From positions 1 through 31,408 of IMG/VR virus record IMGVR_UViG_3300042448_000367: a stretch of DNA of 31,408 nt, one strand, 5' to 3'. This DNA is from a virus. Numbering within the stretch: position 1 is the stretch's first letter; each line of letters opens with the position of its first letter. The notes under the pieces were generated by a model that was not told the origin of the DNA, ran no database searches, and worked only from the letters and a program-made list of their open reading frames with translations. This document shows positions 3,815 to 16,099 of this stretch, in pieces. Position numbers and translations under genes: made by a program.

Positions 3815-6800
3815 ATGTCCTATTCTAACTTAATTCAATTAGCTTCTCCAGCAGTAGTATATGCTTTAGATGATTCAAATGTTGGAAATAGTCAACCTGT
3901 GGCTCCAGATAGATTTTTATACGCAAACCCTAATGGATCAGGTTTTTATAATGGAATATACCAAAACGTAAGTAAGGTTTCTTTTCCTATTGTTTATGGT
4001 GGTCAGCAATCTATTAAGGTTAATGAGAATGGATACATTAGAATACCCTCCTTTAGAAAAATGTCACTTTCTGATGTTGGAAATAAATCATCTTTAGAGT
4101 TTTGGGTAAAAATAAGTAACTCAAGTTCTTCAGAGCAAGTTATAATGACAAAGAAGGACGTGGATGCTGACGGAGCAGTAGATTATGCTACCTGCATTTA
4201 TGTTAAAAATGATTACATTACTTTTAGGCTTGGAATAGAAAGCGATTATCGTGAAGTTTCTGTACCGCTAGATTCTGTAAATAAGCCACTACACATAGTT
4301 GCTTCCTATACCCCTTCTGACATATCTCTTACTGTTAACGGTGCAAAAAATACTACAACTATAACTAATCCTCAAACATTATTCCCTACGTTTGATCTAG
4401 ACGATGAATACTTTTACTTTCAAAAACCATCTGGAATATCCAACATACAGTTTGACTGCATTGCTCTGTATTCTTATGAGCTTGCAAGAGAAAGACTAGT
4501 TAGACATTTTGTTTATGGATGTGGATATAATCCACCAGCTCAGTTTATTAATTCTAATGGTGGTGCACTATATAACTTTTCTATGGATGGTCAAACTACA
4601 ATTAAAAAGTATGATTTTGGTCCAGGCAATCCTTGGGCGGTCAGCGAAACAGATAATGTTAGCCTAGAAAGAGGAAACCTTATCCTTAAAAGTTTTCAGG
4701 AACCAACAATTATTCAAAGAGGAACTTTAGAAGAAAGAAGCTTAGATCTTCTATTTACTACAACTGGATTTGATTTTAATAAAACATCATATTTAGAGTT
4801 AAAAAACTCTGACAGCATTATTTCACATAATCTTGGGGGTTGGGTTTTTAAGTTTAATGGTTCTGGGGTAACTCTTACAACTACAAAGCAGACATTGTTT
4901 AAGTCATTTTCGGACACCCTACAAGACAGCATTGAGGCATATTTAATAAAAGTTGACTCTGTAGATAAACTAGTATTTAAAATAAATGACGTTCTTGTTA
5001 CACAAAATGCCCCAACCATATCTGAAGATTTTTATGTTGGTTACTATACTTCTGGAAGCAATGAATATTTTATTTATGGCACAGCTTCAAGCAATTCAAA
5101 CATTCTTGTTTCTACAGATAAAATAAAGCCATTAAGTTTTGGTACACAAAAAATAAGAATTGGATCAGATAACACTTGGGTATCTGATGATGTGGTACCA
5201 TCAGAACAGTTTGAGTTTACTGGAAAGTTAAAAGAAATAAGGTCTATTTCCGATGGTCTTATTACTTCTAGTTTGCTAGGAAATGCAGTATCCAGTTTAA
5301 AGAATCAATACACCGCTTCGCCAAACTCTAATCAAAAAAGATTTGTTATATCTTCCTCTGGATCCGCAGTTGTTGATATTCCACAGCAAGCACTTTGTCC
5401 TATATCAAGCAATACAACTGGTGCCAACAGAATAGACATTGGACACCCACTTGGTTCAACTGCTATGACCTTAAGTATTTCAAATATTCCATATTCAGAG
5501 GGAGTTGCAGGAACAGCAAGGCTTGCAAGCACATCAGTTACAGAAAGAACTATTACGTCTGGAGACTGGTTAAATAATCAGTTGGTGCAGTCAAACAATC
5601 CTGCAACAAACCCAGTAGATATAATTAGTTTTGCCATATCTTTATCCACAGATGATTTAATTAGAAAACCAGCAAAGCTAAGTTACCTAAGACTTTTTTC
5701 TTATCAGCTTACAAGCGATGATAATGGAACAACAAACTATGTTCTTTGCAATGCCTCTCCTGGAGGAAACCCAGCAAAAATATATTTAACTGGTGCGTCA
5801 AAAACTGTCAATATTCCAGATATTTTAGAGACCCCTATTCTTTACAATGGTTTCTATAGTGGTCTTAGTTTAAAAAATAACTATACAGAGATAAATCATG
5901 ATAGGCAATCTCTTGAGGGTGGTGGCATAAAAGTAATATCCTTTATGCTTTATTTTGATTCTGGTCAGTCATCTGGAACCTATAAGATATTGGACTTTGA
6001 TTCCCTTAACCCAAATAATGGATTTAGCGTTGGCAGCACTGGTAATATAACAAAGGGTTCAAACACCTCCGTTTACTTAAATGGCAACATTGCTTCACAA
6101 GCGTCATCAATTCTTTTAGATCAGTGGCAACAAGTTACAGTTGTTTATACAGAAGAGCTAAACAAGCCACTTATTACTATTGGAAATGCATCTGCATCAA
6201 CTGGTGCCAGAATAGACCAGTTAATTTTGTTTGCAAAGCCATATGACTCTAATTCAGGCAAGGATTTTGTAAAAAACTTATATAACTTAACTGCAGGTGG
6301 TGTATCTCATAGAGTACAATCAACCTCTGTCGTTGGTCTATCTGATGAGTATAGAATACCAGGAATTATTGGAACTCAGCAAGAGCCAGGGTATGGAAAG
6401 GTTTGGTTATCAGATTTTACCGCAGAAGATGTTAGTGGGTTTGTTGAGACAGCTGGAGATTTTTCTGTACTATCCTTAATTGATGGTAGCTCAGAAATAA
6501 CAATACCTGTAACTGGATACTATACTGTAAGTCAGTCTCAAACATTTGAAACTACCACAACAACAAACTATGGAGGTTCTGGAAGTAACACCATTCAGGT
6601 TATTGGTGCTCCAGAGTCATATTTTCCAGGAAGAACAAAACTTTTAAGAAAAATAACAACTGCTGGAACATCACCGTTCACTGACATTACTGTTACAAAC
6701 GCTGTAAGTGATGGAGATTATACAAATACAACAACTCTTACTTTAAGCTCAAATGTAATAGCAAACTTTTCAGATTTCTTAGTTTTTAGCAACGAGTATT

Positions 6801-7171
6801 TTTCTTTTAATCAGGAACAGCAAAGAAGGCTTTATCTGTTAAATAAAAAGATATTTGTTGGTCAAACTTTTGTAGTTAACTCTGGAACAAAAAGATATAT
6901 CTACACGGTTGATCAGATATTTAATGTTGATAATCCAATACAGCAAAGCCCTGGATACTTTAAATTAAAAAAAGAAACTTTAGATCATACAAAAAATGGA
7001 AAGGTTTATGTTGGTCAGTACTATAATTCTACAAAGAGACTTCAGTGGGTACAGCCAACATCAGGAGATACTGGTTATTTTGTCAATCTTGCATCTACTA
7101 ATCTTTTTAGAGAAAAAATTAAATCAAAAACTGCACCAAGTCAAGATTCTATCTTTACAACAGAAGAGTAG
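3815..7171 (+). CDS. Large structural protein with LamG/concanavalin-A-like domains
   Basis: This 1118-residue protein is beta-rich, with no signal peptide or membrane segment. Residues about 60-230 form a LamG-type jelly roll: SLEFWVKI, later PLHIVASYTP and ISLTVNG, the alternation expected of concanavalin-A-like lectins. A second such region lies near residues 690-830 (IKVISFMLYFDSG, then WQQVTVVYTEE), and a third may lie near 560-650. Phages use these domains as carbohydrate-binding fibres, capsid decorations or tail-tip modules. It sits between the reductase and the portal module and is unusually large for a gene just upstream of a portal. I infer a virion surface protein that binds glycans; head or tail location cannot be decided. 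The start has a -10 box and no strong ribosome site. AGA dominates its Arg codons. Confidence 0.65.
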   Translation: MSYSNLIQLASPAVVYALDDSNVGNSQPVAPDRFLYANPNGSGFYNGIYQNVSKVSFPIVYGGQQSIKVNENGYIRIPSFRKMSLSDVGNKSSLEFWVKISNSSSSEQVIMTKKDVDADGAVDYATCIYVKNDYITFRLGIESDYREVSVPLDSVNKPLHIVASYTPSDISLTVNGAKNTTTITNPQTLFPTFDLDDEYFYFQKPSGISNIQFDCIALYSYELARERLVRHFVYGCGYNPPAQFINSNGGALYNFSMDGQTTIKKYDFGPGNPWAVSETDNVSLERGNLILKSFQEPTIIQRGTLEERSLDLLFTTTGFDFNKTSYLELKNSDSIISHNLGGWVFKFNGSGVTLTTTKQTLFKSFSDTLQDSIEAYLIKVDSVDKLVFKINDVLVTQNAPTISEDFYVGYYTSGSNEYFIYGTASSNSNILVSTDKIKPLSFGTQKIRIGSDNTWVSDDVVPSEQFEFTGKLKEIRSISDGLITSSLLGNAVSSLKNQYTASPNSNQKRFVISSSGSAVVDIPQQALCPISSNTTGANRIDIGHPLGSTAMTLSISNIPYSEGVAGTARLASTSVTERTITSGDWLNNQLVQSNNPATNPVDIISFAISLSTDDLIRKPAKLSYLRLFSYQLTSDDNGTTNYVLCNASPGGNPAKIYLTGASKTVNIPDILETPILYNGFYSGLSLKNNYTEINHDRQSLEGGGIKVISFMLYFDSGQSSGTYKILDFDSLNPNNGFSVGSTGNITKGSNTSVYLNGNIASQASSILLDQWQQVTVVYTEELNKPLITIGNASASTGARIDQLILFAKPYDSNSGKDFVKNLYNLTAGGVSHRVQSTSVVGLSDEYRIPGIIGTQQEPGYGKVWLSDFTAEDVSGFVETAGDFSVLSLIDGSSEITIPVTGYYTVSQSQTFETTTTTNYGGSGSNTIQVIGAPESYFPGRTKLLRKITTAGTSPFTDITVTNAVSDGDYTNTTTLTLSSNVIANFSDFLVFSNEYFSFNQEQQRRLYLLNKKIFVGQTFVVNSGTKRYIYTVDQIFNVDNPIQQSPGYFKLKKETLDHTKNGKVYVGQYYNSTKRLQWVQPTSGDTGYFVNLASTNLFREKIKSKTAPSQDSIFTTEE

Positions 7172-7189: not shown

Positions 7190-7531
7190 ATGAATAATAC
7201 AAAAAAGGGTGTACAGGCGGTTGAGTCAAGTGCAGAATATGGCATTTATGTATGGATCCTGCCAAACGGAGAACCATTTAAAGACGATGATGGTAATACT
7301 CTAAACATTCCATCAATGAAGCATGACATTCAAAAAATGAACTTGTTGGCAAAGTCAGCAGCATATTGGGGTAAACCAGATGGTGTTGCAAAGTTTATGC
7401 CTGGAGTTGGAAGAGTTAGCGATACTGAGGCTAGAGAAGATATTGACAGAATGGCTGAAGGCTTAACTCCTTACGGAGATAGTGAAAACTGGAAGGAGAT
7501 ATTTGCAAATGAGCGAAAGAGTAGAGGATAA
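7190..7531 (+). CDS. Small protein preceding the portal gene, unknown function
   Basis: The 113-residue product has YGIYVWILPNGEPF, a DDDGNTLNIPS turn, a helical stretch near KHDIQKMNLLAKSAAYWG and a C-terminal GLTPYGD segment. Proteins of this plan (an aromatic YxVW-P-G opening and an acidic, Arg-containing tail) are often found directly upstream of portal genes in actinobacterial phages, as far as I recall, without a known function. Its last 23 bases overlap the portal gene, which is evidence of coupled expression. The ATG has no ribosome site but lies at the predicted transcript start. A packaging or head-assembly role is guesswork. Confidence 0.7.
   Translation: MNNTKKGVQAVESSAEYGIYVWILPNGEPFKDDDGNTLNIPSMKHDIQKMNLLAKSAAYWGKPDGVAKFMPGVGRVSDTEAREDIDRMAEGLTPYGDSENWKEIFANERKSRG
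7493..7500 (+). promoter_or_regulatory. Ribosome binding site setting the portal start at 7509
   Basis: AAGGAGAT lies 8 bases before ATG 7509 and inside the preceding gene. The longer frame beginning at GTG 7482 lacks such a site, so the true portal start is most likely 7509. Confidence 0.7.
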
Positions 7532-9143
7532 CGAAGTTCCTCAAAGTCAAATTATTTATGGTAGCGATATTGCAATAGATAGTCTTCAGAAAAAAGAAGA
7601 GATTGCAGCCGTTGACGAGTTTATGGTTTCAGCAGATGAAATTTTAAAGTATCGTGGAATAAGTCAAAACTTTAAGCGTAATGCTAAAAGAAAACTTGAG
7701 AAGGCTGGTCAAGTTGGGGGCTCTTCAACAAATTATACTCCACCAAAAAATGGTTTTAGAGGCGATGATGCTGCTTCAAAACAAATGCTCCTTTTTGAAT
7801 ATGCCTATGGTATCTTTGATGTAGTTGAGCCACCATATAATCTTATTTCTCTTGGAAAAACATATGAAGTTTCTTCTGCTAACTATGCTGCAATTAATGC
7901 AAAGGTAACTAATATTGTTGGTCTTGGTTATTATCTAGAGCCAACCCTAAAGGTAAAGCAAATGCTAGAAGACCTTGCAGAAAATACGGTAAAGCTTGGA
8001 AAAACTAGAAAGAAGCTAGAACGTGCAAAGCAAGAGATTTTAGAGTGGCTAGACACTAGAAATGATGAGGAAACCTTTACAGAAACACTTACAAAGGCTT
8101 ACCTAGATTATGAAACTACTGGAAATGGCTACATTGAGATTGGCAGAAAAACAACTGGAGAGATTGGCTATATTGGTCATATTCCTGCTGCAACTATGCG
8201 TGTACGCAGACTTCGTGATGGTTATGTTCAGCTAGTTGGAGGAAAGTTTACATATTTTAGAAACTTCCACGACAAAGAAGATGTTAATCCTCAAATGGGA
8301 ACGGATCCTAGACCAAACGAAATTATTCACATTGCAAACTACACACCAACAAATACCTATTACGGTATTCCGTCAATTGTTCCTGCCAAAAATGCAATGG
8401 CTGGAAATGAGTTTTCATCTAAGTTTAACTTAGAGTATTTTGAAAATAAGGCTACTCCACGTTACATTTTTTGGATTAAGGGTGCAAAGTTAAGCAGAGA
8501 TGCAGAAGCAAAGCTATTTGAGTTTTTCCAAAATAACCTTCGTGGGCAATCCCATAGAACACTTATTGTTCCTCTTCCTGGAGATGATGCAGGTGGCAAG
8601 GTAGAAGTTAAGATGGAGCCTGTAGAAAACGGAATACAAGACGGATCATTTGATAAGTATCGTAAAGCAAATCTTCAAGAAATCCTTATGGCACATCGTG
8701 TTCCTATGACTAAAGTTGGTGCAGGAGAGGGACTTTCCCTAGCTGCAGCAAAAGAAGCAGACAAGGGATTTAAGGAACAGGTAACTCGTCCAGCACAGGA
8801 TGCCCTTGAAAAAAGAATTACAGCAATTGTTGCTGAAAAGACTGATATGTTTAAGTTTGCTTTTAATGAACTTACCCTTACAGATGAAGATACTCAGTCC
8901 AAGATTGACGAGCGTTATTTAAGAATGAAGGTTATTGTTCCTAACGAAGTTCGTTCAAGATTGGGTCTTACTGCAATTCCTGGAGGAGATGAAACCGTTC
9001 AACTTACTGGTCAACAGGCTTCTGAGCAAACAGCTCAAGCCTCTGGAAACAGAAGAAGAGATCAGGAACGTCAAAACAATCAGGCAGATGAAGGCGACAC
9101 TGGTTCAAGAAATGCACAAGGCGAAGGAAGACAGCAACAATAA
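7509..9143 (+). CDS. Portal protein (HK97/PBSX-type)
   Basis: Portal proteins form the dodecameric ring at the capsid vertex through which DNA is packaged and ejected. The 544-residue chain has the family order: a polar N-terminus, FDVVEPPYNLISL, a helical stem region with AYLDYETTGNGYIEI, EIIHIANYTPTNTYYGIPS, then FFEN-like YFENKATPRYIFW and VPMTKVGAG near the end of the core. The last 50 or so residues are a low-complexity Gln/Arg/Asn tail. It precedes the prohead protease and major capsid genes, as expected. ATG 7509 is chosen because of the ribosome site at 7493-7500. There is no fused MuF-type domain. Assignment is by motif and context. Confidence 0.9.
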   Translation: MSERVEDNEVPQSQIIYGSDIAIDSLQKKEEIAAVDEFMVSADEILKYRGISQNFKRNAKRKLEKAGQVGGSSTNYTPPKNGFRGDDAASKQMLLFEYAYGIFDVVEPPYNLISLGKTYEVSSANYAAINAKVTNIVGLGYYLEPTLKVKQMLEDLAENTVKLGKTRKKLERAKQEILEWLDTRNDEETFTETLTKAYLDYETTGNGYIEIGRKTTGEIGYIGHIPAATMRVRRLRDGYVQLVGGKFTYFRNFHDKEDVNPQMGTDPRPNEIIHIANYTPTNTYYGIPSIVPAKNAMAGNEFSSKFNLEYFENKATPRYIFWIKGAKLSRDAEAKLFEFFQNNLRGQSHRTLIVPLPGDDAGGKVEVKMEPVENGIQDGSFDKYRKANLQEILMAHRVPMTKVGAGEGLSLAAAKEADKGFKEQVTRPAQDALEKRITAIVAEKTDMFKFAFNELTLTDEDTQSKIDERYLRMKVIVPNEVRSRLGLTAIPGGDETVQLTGQQASEQTAQASGNRRRDQERQNNQADEGDTGSRNAQGEGRQQQ

Positions 9144-9157
9144 CAAGAAAAGCAATG

Positions 9158-9163
9158 TATAAT
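9158..9163 (+). promoter_or_regulatory. TATAAT -10 box before the prohead protease gene
   Basis: A perfect TATAAT in the 29-base gap after the portal gene. The -35 region is poor. The predicted transcript start (about 9170) is within 3 bases of ATG 9173, and no ribosome site is present, so this again looks leaderless. Confidence 0.45.
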
Positions 9164-9172
9164 TAAATTGTT

Positions 9173-10945
9173 ATGATTAATTTACAAAAGGCTTCCCTTT
9201 CTATGAATGGTAACAGCGTCAACTTGACGATGCCAATTTCAAAAATTGATGAAGAAAAGCGTATTGTATCTGGCTTTGCCACCCTTGATAACATTGACAA
9301 ACAAGGTGATAGAATACTTCCAGAAGCCTCAGAAAAAGCATTTGCAAACTTTCGTGGCAATGTAAGACTTATGCATCAACCTATTCCAGCAGGAAAGGTT
9401 GTTTCTTTTAGATCAGACACATTTTTCGACCCAGAGACAAAGAAGCAATATACGGGAGTATTTGTGGATACCTATGTTTCTAAGGGTGCTCAAGACATCT
9501 GGGAGATGGTTCTTGATGGTACACTCACTGGTTTTTCAATCGGCGGTGCAATTAAAGATACAGACACAGAATTAGATGAAGAATCAAATACAACTGTTCG
9601 TGTTATTAAGGAATATGATTTAGTAGAGTTATCCTTAGTTGATTCACCTGCAAATCAGTTTGCCAATATTTTCTCTATTCAGAAAACTATTGATGGTGAA
9701 ATTGCTGAGGGAATGTTTTCTAAGTCAAATATTAAGAATGTATTTTGGTGTGAAGAGGAAGAAATGGCTTATCTTTCAAGAGAAGAAAAGTATTCTTGCT
9801 CATCCTGCAGTTCTGACCTACCATCTATTGGATGGATTGACGAAATAACAAAGTCAGATATTGAAAAAGCAATGACAGAAATTATTGATACACATAAGGC
9901 AGTTAATCCTGGAACCGTTACAAGTGATGATGTTCCAAAGAAGTATCCAAAGCAAAATCCAAGATTTTCAGATATCCAGACTGAAAAAGATCCTAAAAAG
10001 AAAAAGAAATATATTAAAAAAGCAGGAGAATATTCTTCTGGAGATTTTGTTCAGTGGGGCTCTTCAGGTGGCACAGCAAGAGGTAAAGTAACAAGAGTAG
10101 TAACTAATGGTAAAATTAAAGTACCAAATTCTAGTGTAACAATTACAGGTACACCAGAAGACCCAGCGGTGGTTATCAGAGTTTACGAAAAAGACGGAGA
10201 CTCTTGGAAGCCATCTAAAACAGTTGTAGGACATAGAATGAGTACACTTAGATCTTGGACAGTTAAAGTCCTTAAATCCCTTGGTGTACAATCAGAAGTT
10301 TCTCTACCTAACACAGTAGTGAATGAGGCAAGTGACGCAGAGTTGGTTGCCACACAAATAAATGAAGGAGGTGTTGATATGACTGAAAATAATGAAGTTG
10401 TAGAAGAAGTTGTAGAAGTTGAAGAAGAAGTTGTAGTTGATGAAATTGTTGAAGCTGAAGAAGCTCCAGTAGTAGAAGAAATTGCAAAGTCTGATGAAGT
10501 TGAAGTAACAGAAGCAACAGAAGAGACAGTCGAAACATCAGTAGATACAGAGGGATCTGCAGATGACGCTTCCACCGATAATGGTGAGGCGACTGACCTT
10601 GAAAAGACTCTTAGTGAAATCAAAAATTTTGTTGGCGAAGCTCTTACAAAGAGTAGCGAAACAAATGCAGCTGCAGTTAATGGTGTTGTAAACACTGTTG
10701 CAGAAGTAACAAAAGCTTTAACCGATAAGCTTGTAGAAAATGATTCTCGTTTAGAAGAGATCAACAAAGGTTTGGCGGATATCGTAAATGCAGTACAAAC
10801 AATTAATGGAAGATTGGAATCTGTAGAAAATGATACCGCTGTAAAGAAATCTGGGGAACTTGAGAGTTCCGCAGAAACAACTATACAGAAGTCAGATTCT
10901 GTATGGGGGGGACGCTTCCTCAGTTCCTCGCAATACTTAAATTAG
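9173..10945 (+). CDS. Prohead protease fused to Cys-cluster, Tudor-like and scaffold regions
   Basis: The 590-residue product begins with an HK97-type (S78/U35) capsid maturation protease, residues 20-170: SGFATLDNIDKQGD, the His68 motif RLMHQP, the catalytic Ser122 motif TGFSIGG and LSLVDSPANQFANI. Residues 190-215 hold Cys193, Cys209 and Cys212. Residues 288-360 (GDFVQWGSSGG, ARGKVTRV, EDPAVVIRVY, VGHRMSTL) resemble the HVA1/DUF2945 Tudor-like family. From residue 403 follows a very acidic Glu/Val stretch, then a coiled-coil-like region to the end, typical of scaffolding proteins. The protease would cleave scaffold and capsid N-termini during maturation. A strong internal start at residue 403 could make the scaffold separately. 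The protease call is firm; middle domains are by pattern only. Confidence 0.88.
   Translation: MINLQKASLSMNGNSVNLTMPISKIDEEKRIVSGFATLDNIDKQGDRILPEASEKAFANFRGNVRLMHQPIPAGKVVSFRSDTFFDPETKKQYTGVFVDTYVSKGAQDIWEMVLDGTLTGFSIGGAIKDTDTELDEESNTTVRVIKEYDLVELSLVDSPANQFANIFSIQKTIDGEIAEGMFSKSNIKNVFWCEEEEMAYLSREEKYSCSSCSSDLPSIGWIDEITKSDIEKAMTEIIDTHKAVNPGTVTSDDVPKKYPKQNPRFSDIQTEKDPKKKKKYIKKAGEYSSGDFVQWGSSGGTARGKVTRVVTNGKIKVPNSSVTITGTPEDPAVVIRVYEKDGDSWKPSKTVVGHRMSTLRSWTVKVLKSLGVQSEVSLPNTVVNEASDAELVATQINEGGVDMTENNEVVEEVVEVEEEVVVDEIVEAEEAPVVEEIAKSDEVEVTEATEETVETSVDTEGSADDASTDNGEATDLEKTLSEIKNFVGEALTKSSETNAAAVNGVVNTVAEVTKALTDKLVENDSRLEEINKGLADIVNAVQTINGRLESVENDTAVKKSGELESSAETTIQKSDSVWGGRFLSSSQYLN
10365..10373 (+). 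promoter_or_regulatory. Internal consensus ribosome binding site for the nested scaffold
   Basis: AAGGAGGTG is complementary over all nine bases to a standard anti-Shine-Dalgarno sequence and lies 5 bases before an in-frame ATG at 10379. It is as strong as any ribosome site in the window, yet sits deep inside the protease gene. Confidence 0.7.
10379..10945 (+). CDS. Putative nested scaffolding protein (internal in-frame start)
   Basis: The ATG at 10379 is codon 403 of the protease gene and shares its frame and stop, giving 188 residues. The product opens with an extremely acidic, Val/Glu-rich stretch, followed by helix-rich sequence (TDLEKTLSEIKNFVGEAL, then DSRLEEINKGLADIVNAV) and a short Gly/Ser/Tyr tail. 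Small acidic helical proteins encoded just before the major capsid gene are usually scaffolds that guide shell assembly. Lambda uses the same arrangement: Nu3 is made from an internal in-frame start in the protease gene C. The ribosome site directly upstream makes separate synthesis likely. Whether the full-length protease is also made, and in what ratio, is unknown. Confidence 0.65.
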   Translation: MTENNEVVEEVVEVEEEVVVDEIVEAEEAPVVEEIAKSDEVEVTEATEETVETSVDTEGSADDASTDNGEATDLEKTLSEIKNFVGEALTKSSETNAAAVNGVVNTVAEVTKALTDKLVENDSRLEEINKGLADIVNAVQTINGRLESVENDTAVKKSGELESSAETTIQKSDSVWGGRFLSSSQYLN

Positions 10946-10971: not shown

Positions 10972-12036
10972 ATGAGTGATATTTTAGAAAAAGCCACAGC
11001 AAGTGGCACAGTTCTTTCCCCACTAGTATCCCCTGGTGCTATGACAGCAGCAGGTAACTCTGGTGACAATGGTGGTGTTCTTAATCCAACACAATCTACA
11101 CAGTTTATCGAGTACATCTTTGATCAGATGGTTCTCGCTAACGATGGTCGCAAGGTAACGATGCGTGGAAATACTATGGAACTGGATAAGATCCGTGTTG
11201 GTTCACGTCTTGTTACAAAAGCTACACAGGCTGATGATACAGGAGAAAACAGTGCTCCAGCATTCACAAAGATCGAACTTACAACAACAAAGTTCCGTCT
11301 ACAGTACGAACTATCAACCGAATCCCTAGAGGACTCGATTGAAGGTGCGTCTCTAGAGGATCACGTTGTACGTTTGATGGCAACTCAATTCGGAAACGAC
11401 TTGGAAGATATTGCAATTAATGGTCGTCCAGGAACATCTGGTGACGGTACATACAACAATACTCTTGCAGGATTTATCCGTCAGATCAAGGACACTAACT
11501 ACGCAGGTGCTCACGAAGCTGCAGCAGCTGCTGCAGCTATGACAGGCATCTGGGAAGCTACTCCTGATTCAGGCGATGGATCTTCCGCAAAGTTGACTCT
11601 TGATGCAATCGAAGCAATCTACAACGCAATGCCTCGTAAGTTCAAGGCTCGCCGTCAGGATCTTAAGTTCTACATGAACAGCAAGCATATTCAGGAATTG
11701 CTAACAGAGCTTCGCACAGTTAATACAACTGACGGAACTTCAGTTCCTTACGATGTTGCTACTCGTGTAATTGATGGAGTTACTCCAAGAATTGGCGGTC
11801 CAGCTGGTGCTCAATACACCATCTTCGGTCTTCCAGTTCAGGAAGTTCCTTTGTATCCAGAAGACTATGTAGATCTAACTCTTCCTTCAAACCGCATTTG
11901 GGGTTTCCAGAGAGATGTTACAGTACATCGTGAGTTCAAGCCACGCAAGGACTCTGTAGAGTACACAGTCTACGTCCGTATGGGTGTAGCACTAGAAGAA
12001 AAGTCAGCAATTGCTTACGCAGTACCAACTGCATAA
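10972..12036 (+). CDS. Major capsid protein (HK97 fold)
   Basis: The 354-residue protein follows the protease/scaffold gene, the classic place for the shell protein. Family-like features are a flexible N-terminus, FDQMVLANDGRK, GNTMELDKI in the E-loop region, LSTESLEDSIEGASLEDHVV at the start of the spine helix, an FGNDLEDIAINGRPG turn, and a C-terminal WGFQRDVTVHREFKPRKDS with YTVYVRMGVAL. A poly-Ala stretch lies near residues 182-190. The ribosome site AGGTGA at 10957-10962 is followed by an A-rich spacer. Of 19 Arg codons, 17 are CGT/CGC and 2 AGA, unlike neighbouring genes, as expected of a very highly expressed protein. A strong terminator follows 13 bases after the stop. Confidence 0.92.
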   Translation: MSDILEKATASGTVLSPLVSPGAMTAAGNSGDNGGVLNPTQSTQFIEYIFDQMVLANDGRKVTMRGNTMELDKIRVGSRLVTKATQADDTGENSAPAFTKIELTTTKFRLQYELSTESLEDSIEGASLEDHVVRLMATQFGNDLEDIAINGRPGTSGDGTYNNTLAGFIRQIKDTNYAGAHEAAAAAAAMTGIWEATPDSGDGSSAKLTLDAIEAIYNAMPRKFKARRQDLKFYMNSKHIQELLTELRTVNTTDGTSVPYDVATRVIDGVTPRIGGPAGAQYTIFGLPVQEVPLYPEDYVDLTLPSNRIWGFQRDVTVHREFKPRKDSVEYTVYVRMGVALEEKSAIAYAVPTA

Positions 12037-15400: not shown

Positions 15401-16099
15401 ATGGCTAATAGTTCAAAAAATATTATTGTTGGTGCTGGTGTTCTTTACATCGGTGCTGACACAGAAGAAAAATCAATTAATGATATTCCTAAGTCCCCAG
15501 CAACATATGCTGCTAACGATGCAGGTACATATCAGAACCCAACAAACGTAAATGATACTAAGTGGGATCACGTTGGTTACACATCGGAAGGTGTGGACTT
15601 CTCATTCGAACCAGATTACGGTGAAGTACAGGTTGATCAACTTCTAGACGTTGCTAAGATTTACAAGCAAGGTCAGAAAGTTATGGTTAAGACTACTCTA
15701 ACAGAAGCAACATTGGAAAACTTCCTTGTTGTTCTTGGTGGAAAAGATTCTGACCTAAGACCAACAAGTACTCACACTTCATCTAAGGGCAAGACAACAA
15801 TCTTGGATCTTAATGGTGGTGCTTTGGGATATGCTCCAGTAGAGCGTTCTATCCTTATTGTTGGTCCTGGTCCAGAAAAACTTCTGGAATCAGGTCAGAC
15901 ACCTAATGGTGGAACCGTAGTAGAGCGTATGTATATTGGATATCGTGCTCTATCTATGGAGACAGTATCTGTAGGTATTAAGCGTAACGAAGCAACAGTG
16001 TTCCCAGTAACATTCCGCTTGCTTCCGTCTAATGCAGAAACAGCTGTAGACAACAACGCAATCTACGGCAAGGTAATTGACCGTGTATACGTTGGTTAA
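15401..16099 (+). CDS. Major tail tube protein
   Basis: The 232-residue protein follows the tail terminator and precedes the chaperone pair and tape measure, the standard place for the tube subunit that stacks into hexameric rings. Pattern: N-terminal NIIVGAGVLYIGAD, then WDHVGYTSEGVDFSFEPDYGEVQVDQLLD, and ATVFPVTFRLLPSN near the end, all typical of tail-tube beta-sandwich proteins. It has its own putative promoter, a strong ribosome site and a perfect terminator downstream. Six of its seven Arg codons are CGT/CGC, in contrast to AGA-rich neighbours, which matches very high expression. Confidence 0.87.
   Translation: MANSSKNIIVGAGVLYIGADTEEKSINDIPKSPATYAANDAGTYQNPTNVNDTKWDHVGYTSEGVDFSFEPDYGEVQVDQLLDVAKIYKQGQKVMVKTTLTEATLENFLVVLGGKDSDLRPTSTHTSSKGKTTILDLNGGALGYAPVERSILIVGPGPEKLLESGQTPNGGTVVERMYIGYRALSMETVSVGIKRNEATVFPVTFRLLPSNAETAVDNNAIYGKVIDRVYVG

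Follow-up and report, generated by a model that had tools for sequence, protein, structure and literature searches.

Nested scaffold genes and the protease locus

Phage Lambda carries its scaffold gene, Nu3, nested in frame within the protease gene C. A comparable layout is described here for a 31.4-kb phage fragment, IMG/VR record IMGVR_UViG_3300042448_000367 (positions 1 to 31,408, the whole of which is referred to as the window), in which the prohead protease gene contains an internal, in-frame start preceded by a Shine-Dalgarno (SD) sequence. With regard to the closest described systems, gpC, the protease of Lambda, bears an S49-type peptidase annotation (PMC10695390). For Mu I/Z, and likewise for Mu-like phages of Pseudomonas, an in-frame start inside the gene and an SD before it are on record, and gene 27 of PaMx73, too, has a valine codon as internal start (PMC4378225). 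Herpesvirus UL26.5 is expressed from a second promoter inside UL26 (PMC2949831). In HK97 and T5, the scaffold is the N-terminal (delta) domain of the capsid protein; phage scaffolds are typically helical, with coiled coils (PMC10275583).

The gene order in the window is portal (7482-9143), S78 protease (9173-10945), major capsid protein (10972-12036), tail and tape-measure. The open reading frame (ORF) of the protease very probably specifies two proteins with a common C terminus, an S78 protease-scaffold and a free nested scaffold resembling Lambda Nu3 or Mu Z. The elements concerned are as follows.

9173..10945, + strand: protease-scaffold ORF, 590 amino acids (aa); Peptidase_S78 2.4e-8, phrog_9427 head maturation protease 7.9e-121
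10365..10373, + strand: internal SD AAGGAGGTG; sequence match and duplex energy
10379..10945, + strand: putative nested scaffold gene starting at ATG codon 403, product of 188 aa; conservation and alignment
10379..10594, + strand: acidic N-terminal part, predicted to be disordered; predicted local distance difference test (pLDDT) < 50; the first 75 residues contain 30 D+E and 1 K+R
10595..10867, + strand: long helix, probable coiled coil; single predicted helix, residues 73-163, mostly pLDDT > 90
10898..10942, + strand: S-x-W-G-G-R-F-L, a motif conserved at the C terminus and a candidate tail for binding the capsid; S, W, G, F and L do not vary

The nested frame is in frame with the protease gene and 3'-coterminal to it (codon 403 of 590), as in the Lambda C/Nu3 and Mu I/Z types. 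The likeness to Lambda comprises an internal start, a putative scaffold gene that occupies the 3' end of the protease gene in the same frame and a position just before the head genes. The analogy to Nu3 drawn in the first-pass annotation is sound for the gene layout, but it does not extend to the protease, since gpC is of the S49 type whereas the present protease is of the S78 type with a predicted herpesvirus-protease fold. Mu I/Z and PaMx73, likened by gene arrangement, share the layout and the internal in-frame start with an SD, although the SD of PaMx73 (ACGAGGA) is weaker than AAGGAGGTG. Herpesvirus UL26/UL26.5 has in common with this locus the protease fold (predicted here), a nested, in-frame and 3'-coterminal scaffold and a short C-terminal tail; the herpesviruses rely on a second promoter, whereas this locus has an SD inside the gene and showed no sign of a promoter there. 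HK97 and T5 likewise have a protease of the same broad class adjoining an HK97-fold capsid gene, but their scaffold is on the capsid protein, whereas the present phage has a short capsid protein and its scaffold would be encoded by the protease gene. Nested protease/scaffold genes are already known from Lambda, Mu and the herpesviruses; the present locus would add a further case, on a protease with a predicted herpesvirus-protease fold. The literature searched did not contain a description of a nested scaffold for this group, which does not show that none exists.

The internal start site and its conservation

The internal SD is followed by TTGAT (5 nt) and then by an ATG (10379-10381), in frame as codon 403 of the 590-codon ORF. 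The location of this site and the sizes of the two products, 590 and 188 residues, agree exactly with the first-pass annotation. AAGGAGGTGNNNNNATG has one match in the window, where 0.00 are expected from shuffles, while the rarity of AAGGAGGT alone is not significant (1.2 expected by chance in the window). The SD motif by itself is unremarkable; its placement and conservation are remarkable. Against the 3' tail of the 16S ribosomal RNA, the internal site reaches -14.8 kcal/mol, which is rank 1 of the 1748 ATG, GTG and TTG codons on the + strand. The next true genes in this ranking are that at 15401 (-13.9), which probably encodes the major tail protein, and that of the major capsid protein at 10972 (-11.1), so the internal site ranks with the starts of abundant structural proteins. 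The protease's own start has a duplex energy of +0.8, that is, no SD. RNA accessibility was slightly higher at the internal start than at random positions (0.55 vs 0.45) and was not used as evidence.

When synonymous codons were shuffled with the protein fixed, 12% of the trials with the window gene reached -14.8 kcal/mol. This test is weak because the residues themselves encode the SD, and it was therefore replaced by tests of codon phase and start codon between lineages. One gene is weak proof; the proof lies in conservation across the family.

The relatives comprised IMG/VR contigs and phage records, namely Streptomyces Stanwilliamsviridae and Rhodococcus phage Trina. L164 (frame closing at 285 codons), L034 (premature stop) and ORFs truncated at the end of a contig were left out; the cellular genome contigs searched yielded no relative. 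In L164 (4001-5163), similarity continues to the end beyond the closure of the protease ORF at 285 codons, which indicates a frameshift or an assembly error.

Of the distinct, complete-enough relatives, whose identity goes down to 34-50%, 116/116 have an in-frame internal SD with a start codon. The first-pass annotation had proposed a test of its own, namely that the internal ATG and its ribosome site should be conserved, and the intact genes passed it without exception. In all 116, the best internal in-frame site, at about -9 to -15 kcal/mol, lies where the linker gives way to the acidic region. The start codon, 5-13 nt downstream of the SD core, is codon 245-284 in short proteins (304-305 in a few) and at 329-416 in those with a longer linker. 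It is ATG in 82 relatives, GTG in 33 and TTG in one, with no others; in StarPlatinum, for example, it is the GTG of codon 258. Among 45 representatives below 80% identity, valine at the internal start is always encoded by GTG (16/16), as against 5.1% of the valine codons elsewhere in these genes; the naive probability of 2e-21 is overstated owing to shared ancestry, yet the bias is far beyond doubt. The SD itself occurs in two main codon phases according to lineage, either GGA-GGT (Gly-Gly; E/K-GG) or AAG-GAG-G (Lys-Glu; K/E/Q-E). The different phases, together with the exclusive use of GTG for valine, show that the DNA is conserved and not the protein. The same loci supplied 103 control ORFs, each at least 250 codons long, and none of them has an internal in-frame site at or below -10 kcal/mol.

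The nested products align from their first residue and begin with MTE, MAE or MSE, like a natural N terminus. A very acidic part of about 70 residues, predicted to be disordered, leads into a single predicted helix of some 90 residues; the sequence then varies up to the tail S-x-W-x-G-x-F-L, which is invariant. Phage scaffolds typically have such a plan. The site had been placed at the beginning of an acidic helical region, and this description is borne out: the segment there is acidic and of low complexity, and a long helix is predicted after it.

Protease, capsid protein and putative cleavage sites

The remaining features of the locus are listed below.

9158..9163, + strand: TATAAT, resembling a -10 box, 9 nt upstream of the protease ATG; probably the promoter for a messenger RNA (mRNA) with no leader or almost none; family enrichment
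9236..9685, + strand: S78 prohead-protease domain, aa 22-171, invariant H68 and S154; Pfam, invariant columns and fold matches
9737..9841, + strand: Cys-rich stretch (C..., CSSC), possibly zinc-ribbon-like, as judged from sequence
10040..10180, + strand: Hva1_TUDOR domain, aa 290-336; Pfam 5.2e-7 and alignment
10972..12036, + strand: major capsid protein, 354 aa, own SD, no room for a delta domain; Pfam, PHROGs and duplex energy

The protease domain matches Pfam PF04586 (Peptidase S78, Caudovirus prohead protease) with 34.7 bits, above the curated cut-off of 21. Pfam gave no S49 match in the ORF but S78 families, and PHROGs gave head maturation protease families. H68 and S154, unchanged in 25 sequences, are probably the catalytic residues by homology. 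The full-length model is of medium confidence in the protease domain and of low confidence outside it. In a Foldseek search with the predicted protease fold, the top matches were herpesvirus proteases, including those of pseudorabies virus and human cytomegalovirus, at ranks 1, 2 and 5 (probability 0.99, 0.93 and 0.47; E 0.02-0.2; query model of medium confidence). These matches, weak but the best obtained, suggest an assemblin (herpesvirus-protease) fold. A sequence search of solved structures with the protease returned nothing relevant, coiled coils dominating the matches.

At the protease start, a TAnnnT box with at least four matches to TATAAT is located 6-10 nt (mostly 9) upstream in 41/44 representatives, as against 11/143 other ORF starts. 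The box is a perfect TATAAT in 26/44, and a TGn extension is often present. In view of this box, which is not enriched upstream of the internal start, the fusion may start leaderless or nearly so, and the scaffold would be made by SD-led initiation; the box suggests leaderless, weak synthesis of the protease. A TATAAT is also present at 1842-1847, 5 nt before the GTG of a ribonucleotide reductase gene at 1853.

With regard to other sources of scaffold, the 354-aa capsid protein does not accommodate an N-terminal delta domain of about 100-160 residues, as its Phage_capsid match begins at residue 34. The capsid proteins of the relatives measure 325-412 aa, compared with 465 aa in T5-like relatives. 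The distantly related Vibrio phages Pylo and PG07 exhibit the reciprocal arrangement, with a protease of ~200 aa that bears no extension and a capsid precursor of 465 residues. In the Stanwilliamsviridae regions examined, the annotation shows no scaffold gene from portal to capsid, and in the records listed the nested part is annotated only as 'capsid (head) maturation protease'.

The nested region (10379-10942) and its counterparts in the relatives are rich in a short motif: [ILV]xKS occurs 126 times in the scaffolds as against about 10 in shuffles, an excess of about 13-fold. The looser [ILV]xK[SAT] occurs 197 times (35 expected), with no excess in other proteins (94 vs 86). In addition, [ILV]xK is present close to the N terminus, within 20 residues in 37/37 capsid proteins and within 10 in 39/45 proteases. 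The [ILV]xK|S motifs are likely to reflect the cleavage preference of the protease, with the nested region as its substrate. At the capsid N terminus of this phage (10972-10992), the head protease is predicted to cut after residue 7 (MSDILEK|A).

Several further observations concern the surroundings. In some relatives (L056, L062), the cysteines of the stretch that follows the protease domain are replaced by D, S or T, while the flanking sequence is kept. The Hva1_TUDOR stretch forms an extra linker between the protease and the nested scaffold, upstream of the internal start, and is present only in longer family members. With the ribonucleotide reductase gene on one side and the portal region on the other, positions 3815-7171 encode an 1118-aa protein with a LamG-like domain; a LamG-domain protein likewise precedes the portal in Coruscant. 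The host probably belongs to the aquatic actinobacteria, the actinobacterial assignment being drawn solely from related actinobacterial phages.

Alternative explanations and significance

On the reading that we favour, translation from 9173 would yield the full-length S78 protease tethered to a scaffold tail, and independent initiation at 10379, at the full-consensus SD, would yield the free 188-residue scaffold in excess. Both proteins would enter the procapsid through the common helix and C-terminal tail, with few protease-scaffold molecules among many scaffold molecules. The protease would then cleave the scaffold and the N-terminal tail of the capsid protein, probably after [ILV]xK, and the pieces would exit before DNA packaging.

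Several points weigh against this reading. Long helices and acidic tails are unspecific, and the nested part retrieved only unrelated coiled coils in the sequence search of solved structures. The relatives are not statistically independent, and synonymous shuffling of single genes yields such a site in 0-22% of the trials. We infer the synthesis, abundance and scaffold role of the nested product, and free scaffold could also come from proteolysis.

The alternative that survives best, although improbable, is that the internal start is real and its product is a minor head protein, a decoration protein or a portal-assembly factor. Known scaffolds were matched neither in sequence nor in fold, which would fit this view, but the product lies between the protease and the capsid gene, has the length, acidic tail and long helix of a scaffold and is enriched in putative cleavage sites, and there is no delta domain and, as annotated between portal and capsid in the regions examined, no other scaffold gene.

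Slightly less credible is the production of the fusion only, from which the scaffold would be freed by self-cleavage, the SD-like sequence acting as a ribosome pause between protease and tail. Prohead proteases do process themselves in other phages, and the linker, too, holds [ILV]xK[SAT] motifs (61 vs 21 expected). A pause, however, needs no start codon, yet the position past the SD core is occupied by ATG, GTG or TTG only, valine there is invariably GTG, and the strongest SD of the window is internal, in a gene whose own start has none.

It is a little harder still to accept that the nested product comes from its own transcript rather than from internal initiation on a common mRNA. The UL26.5 promoter does sit within UL26 (PMC2949831), but -10-like boxes are not enriched 20-140 nt upstream of the internal start when compared with the rest of the gene. 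Finally, the GTG bias and the shift in the codon phase of the SD already refute a chance SD-like sequence kept only through a conserved EGG...M protein sequence: Gly-Gly codons easily spell GGAGG, as the shuffles of the window gene illustrate, but the residues vary by lineage while the nucleotides persist, the start position holds start codons only and the control genes have no such site.

A broader proposal, which we rate at somewhat less than even, is that the protease:scaffold ratio is set throughout this actinobacterial phage group by two initiation modes on one mRNA, a promoter-abutting, leaderless and weak start for the fusion and an internal SD for the scaffold in excess. With its herpesvirus-fold protease, the locus would then be a translational counterpart of UL26/UL26.5.

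The nested product would fill the place of the scaffold that a large group of actinophages has lacked, as the Stanwilliamsviridae records examined annotate a protease and no scaffold. Some members of the group grow on Streptomyces, with LukeCage, StarPlatinum and Coruscant as laboratory phages, and the prediction covers the exact start of the scaffold, the motif in its tail and the sites of its cleavage. The combination, in phages, of a nested scaffold with a herpesvirus-fold protease would bear on the extent of the common ancestry of head assembly in phages and herpesviruses.
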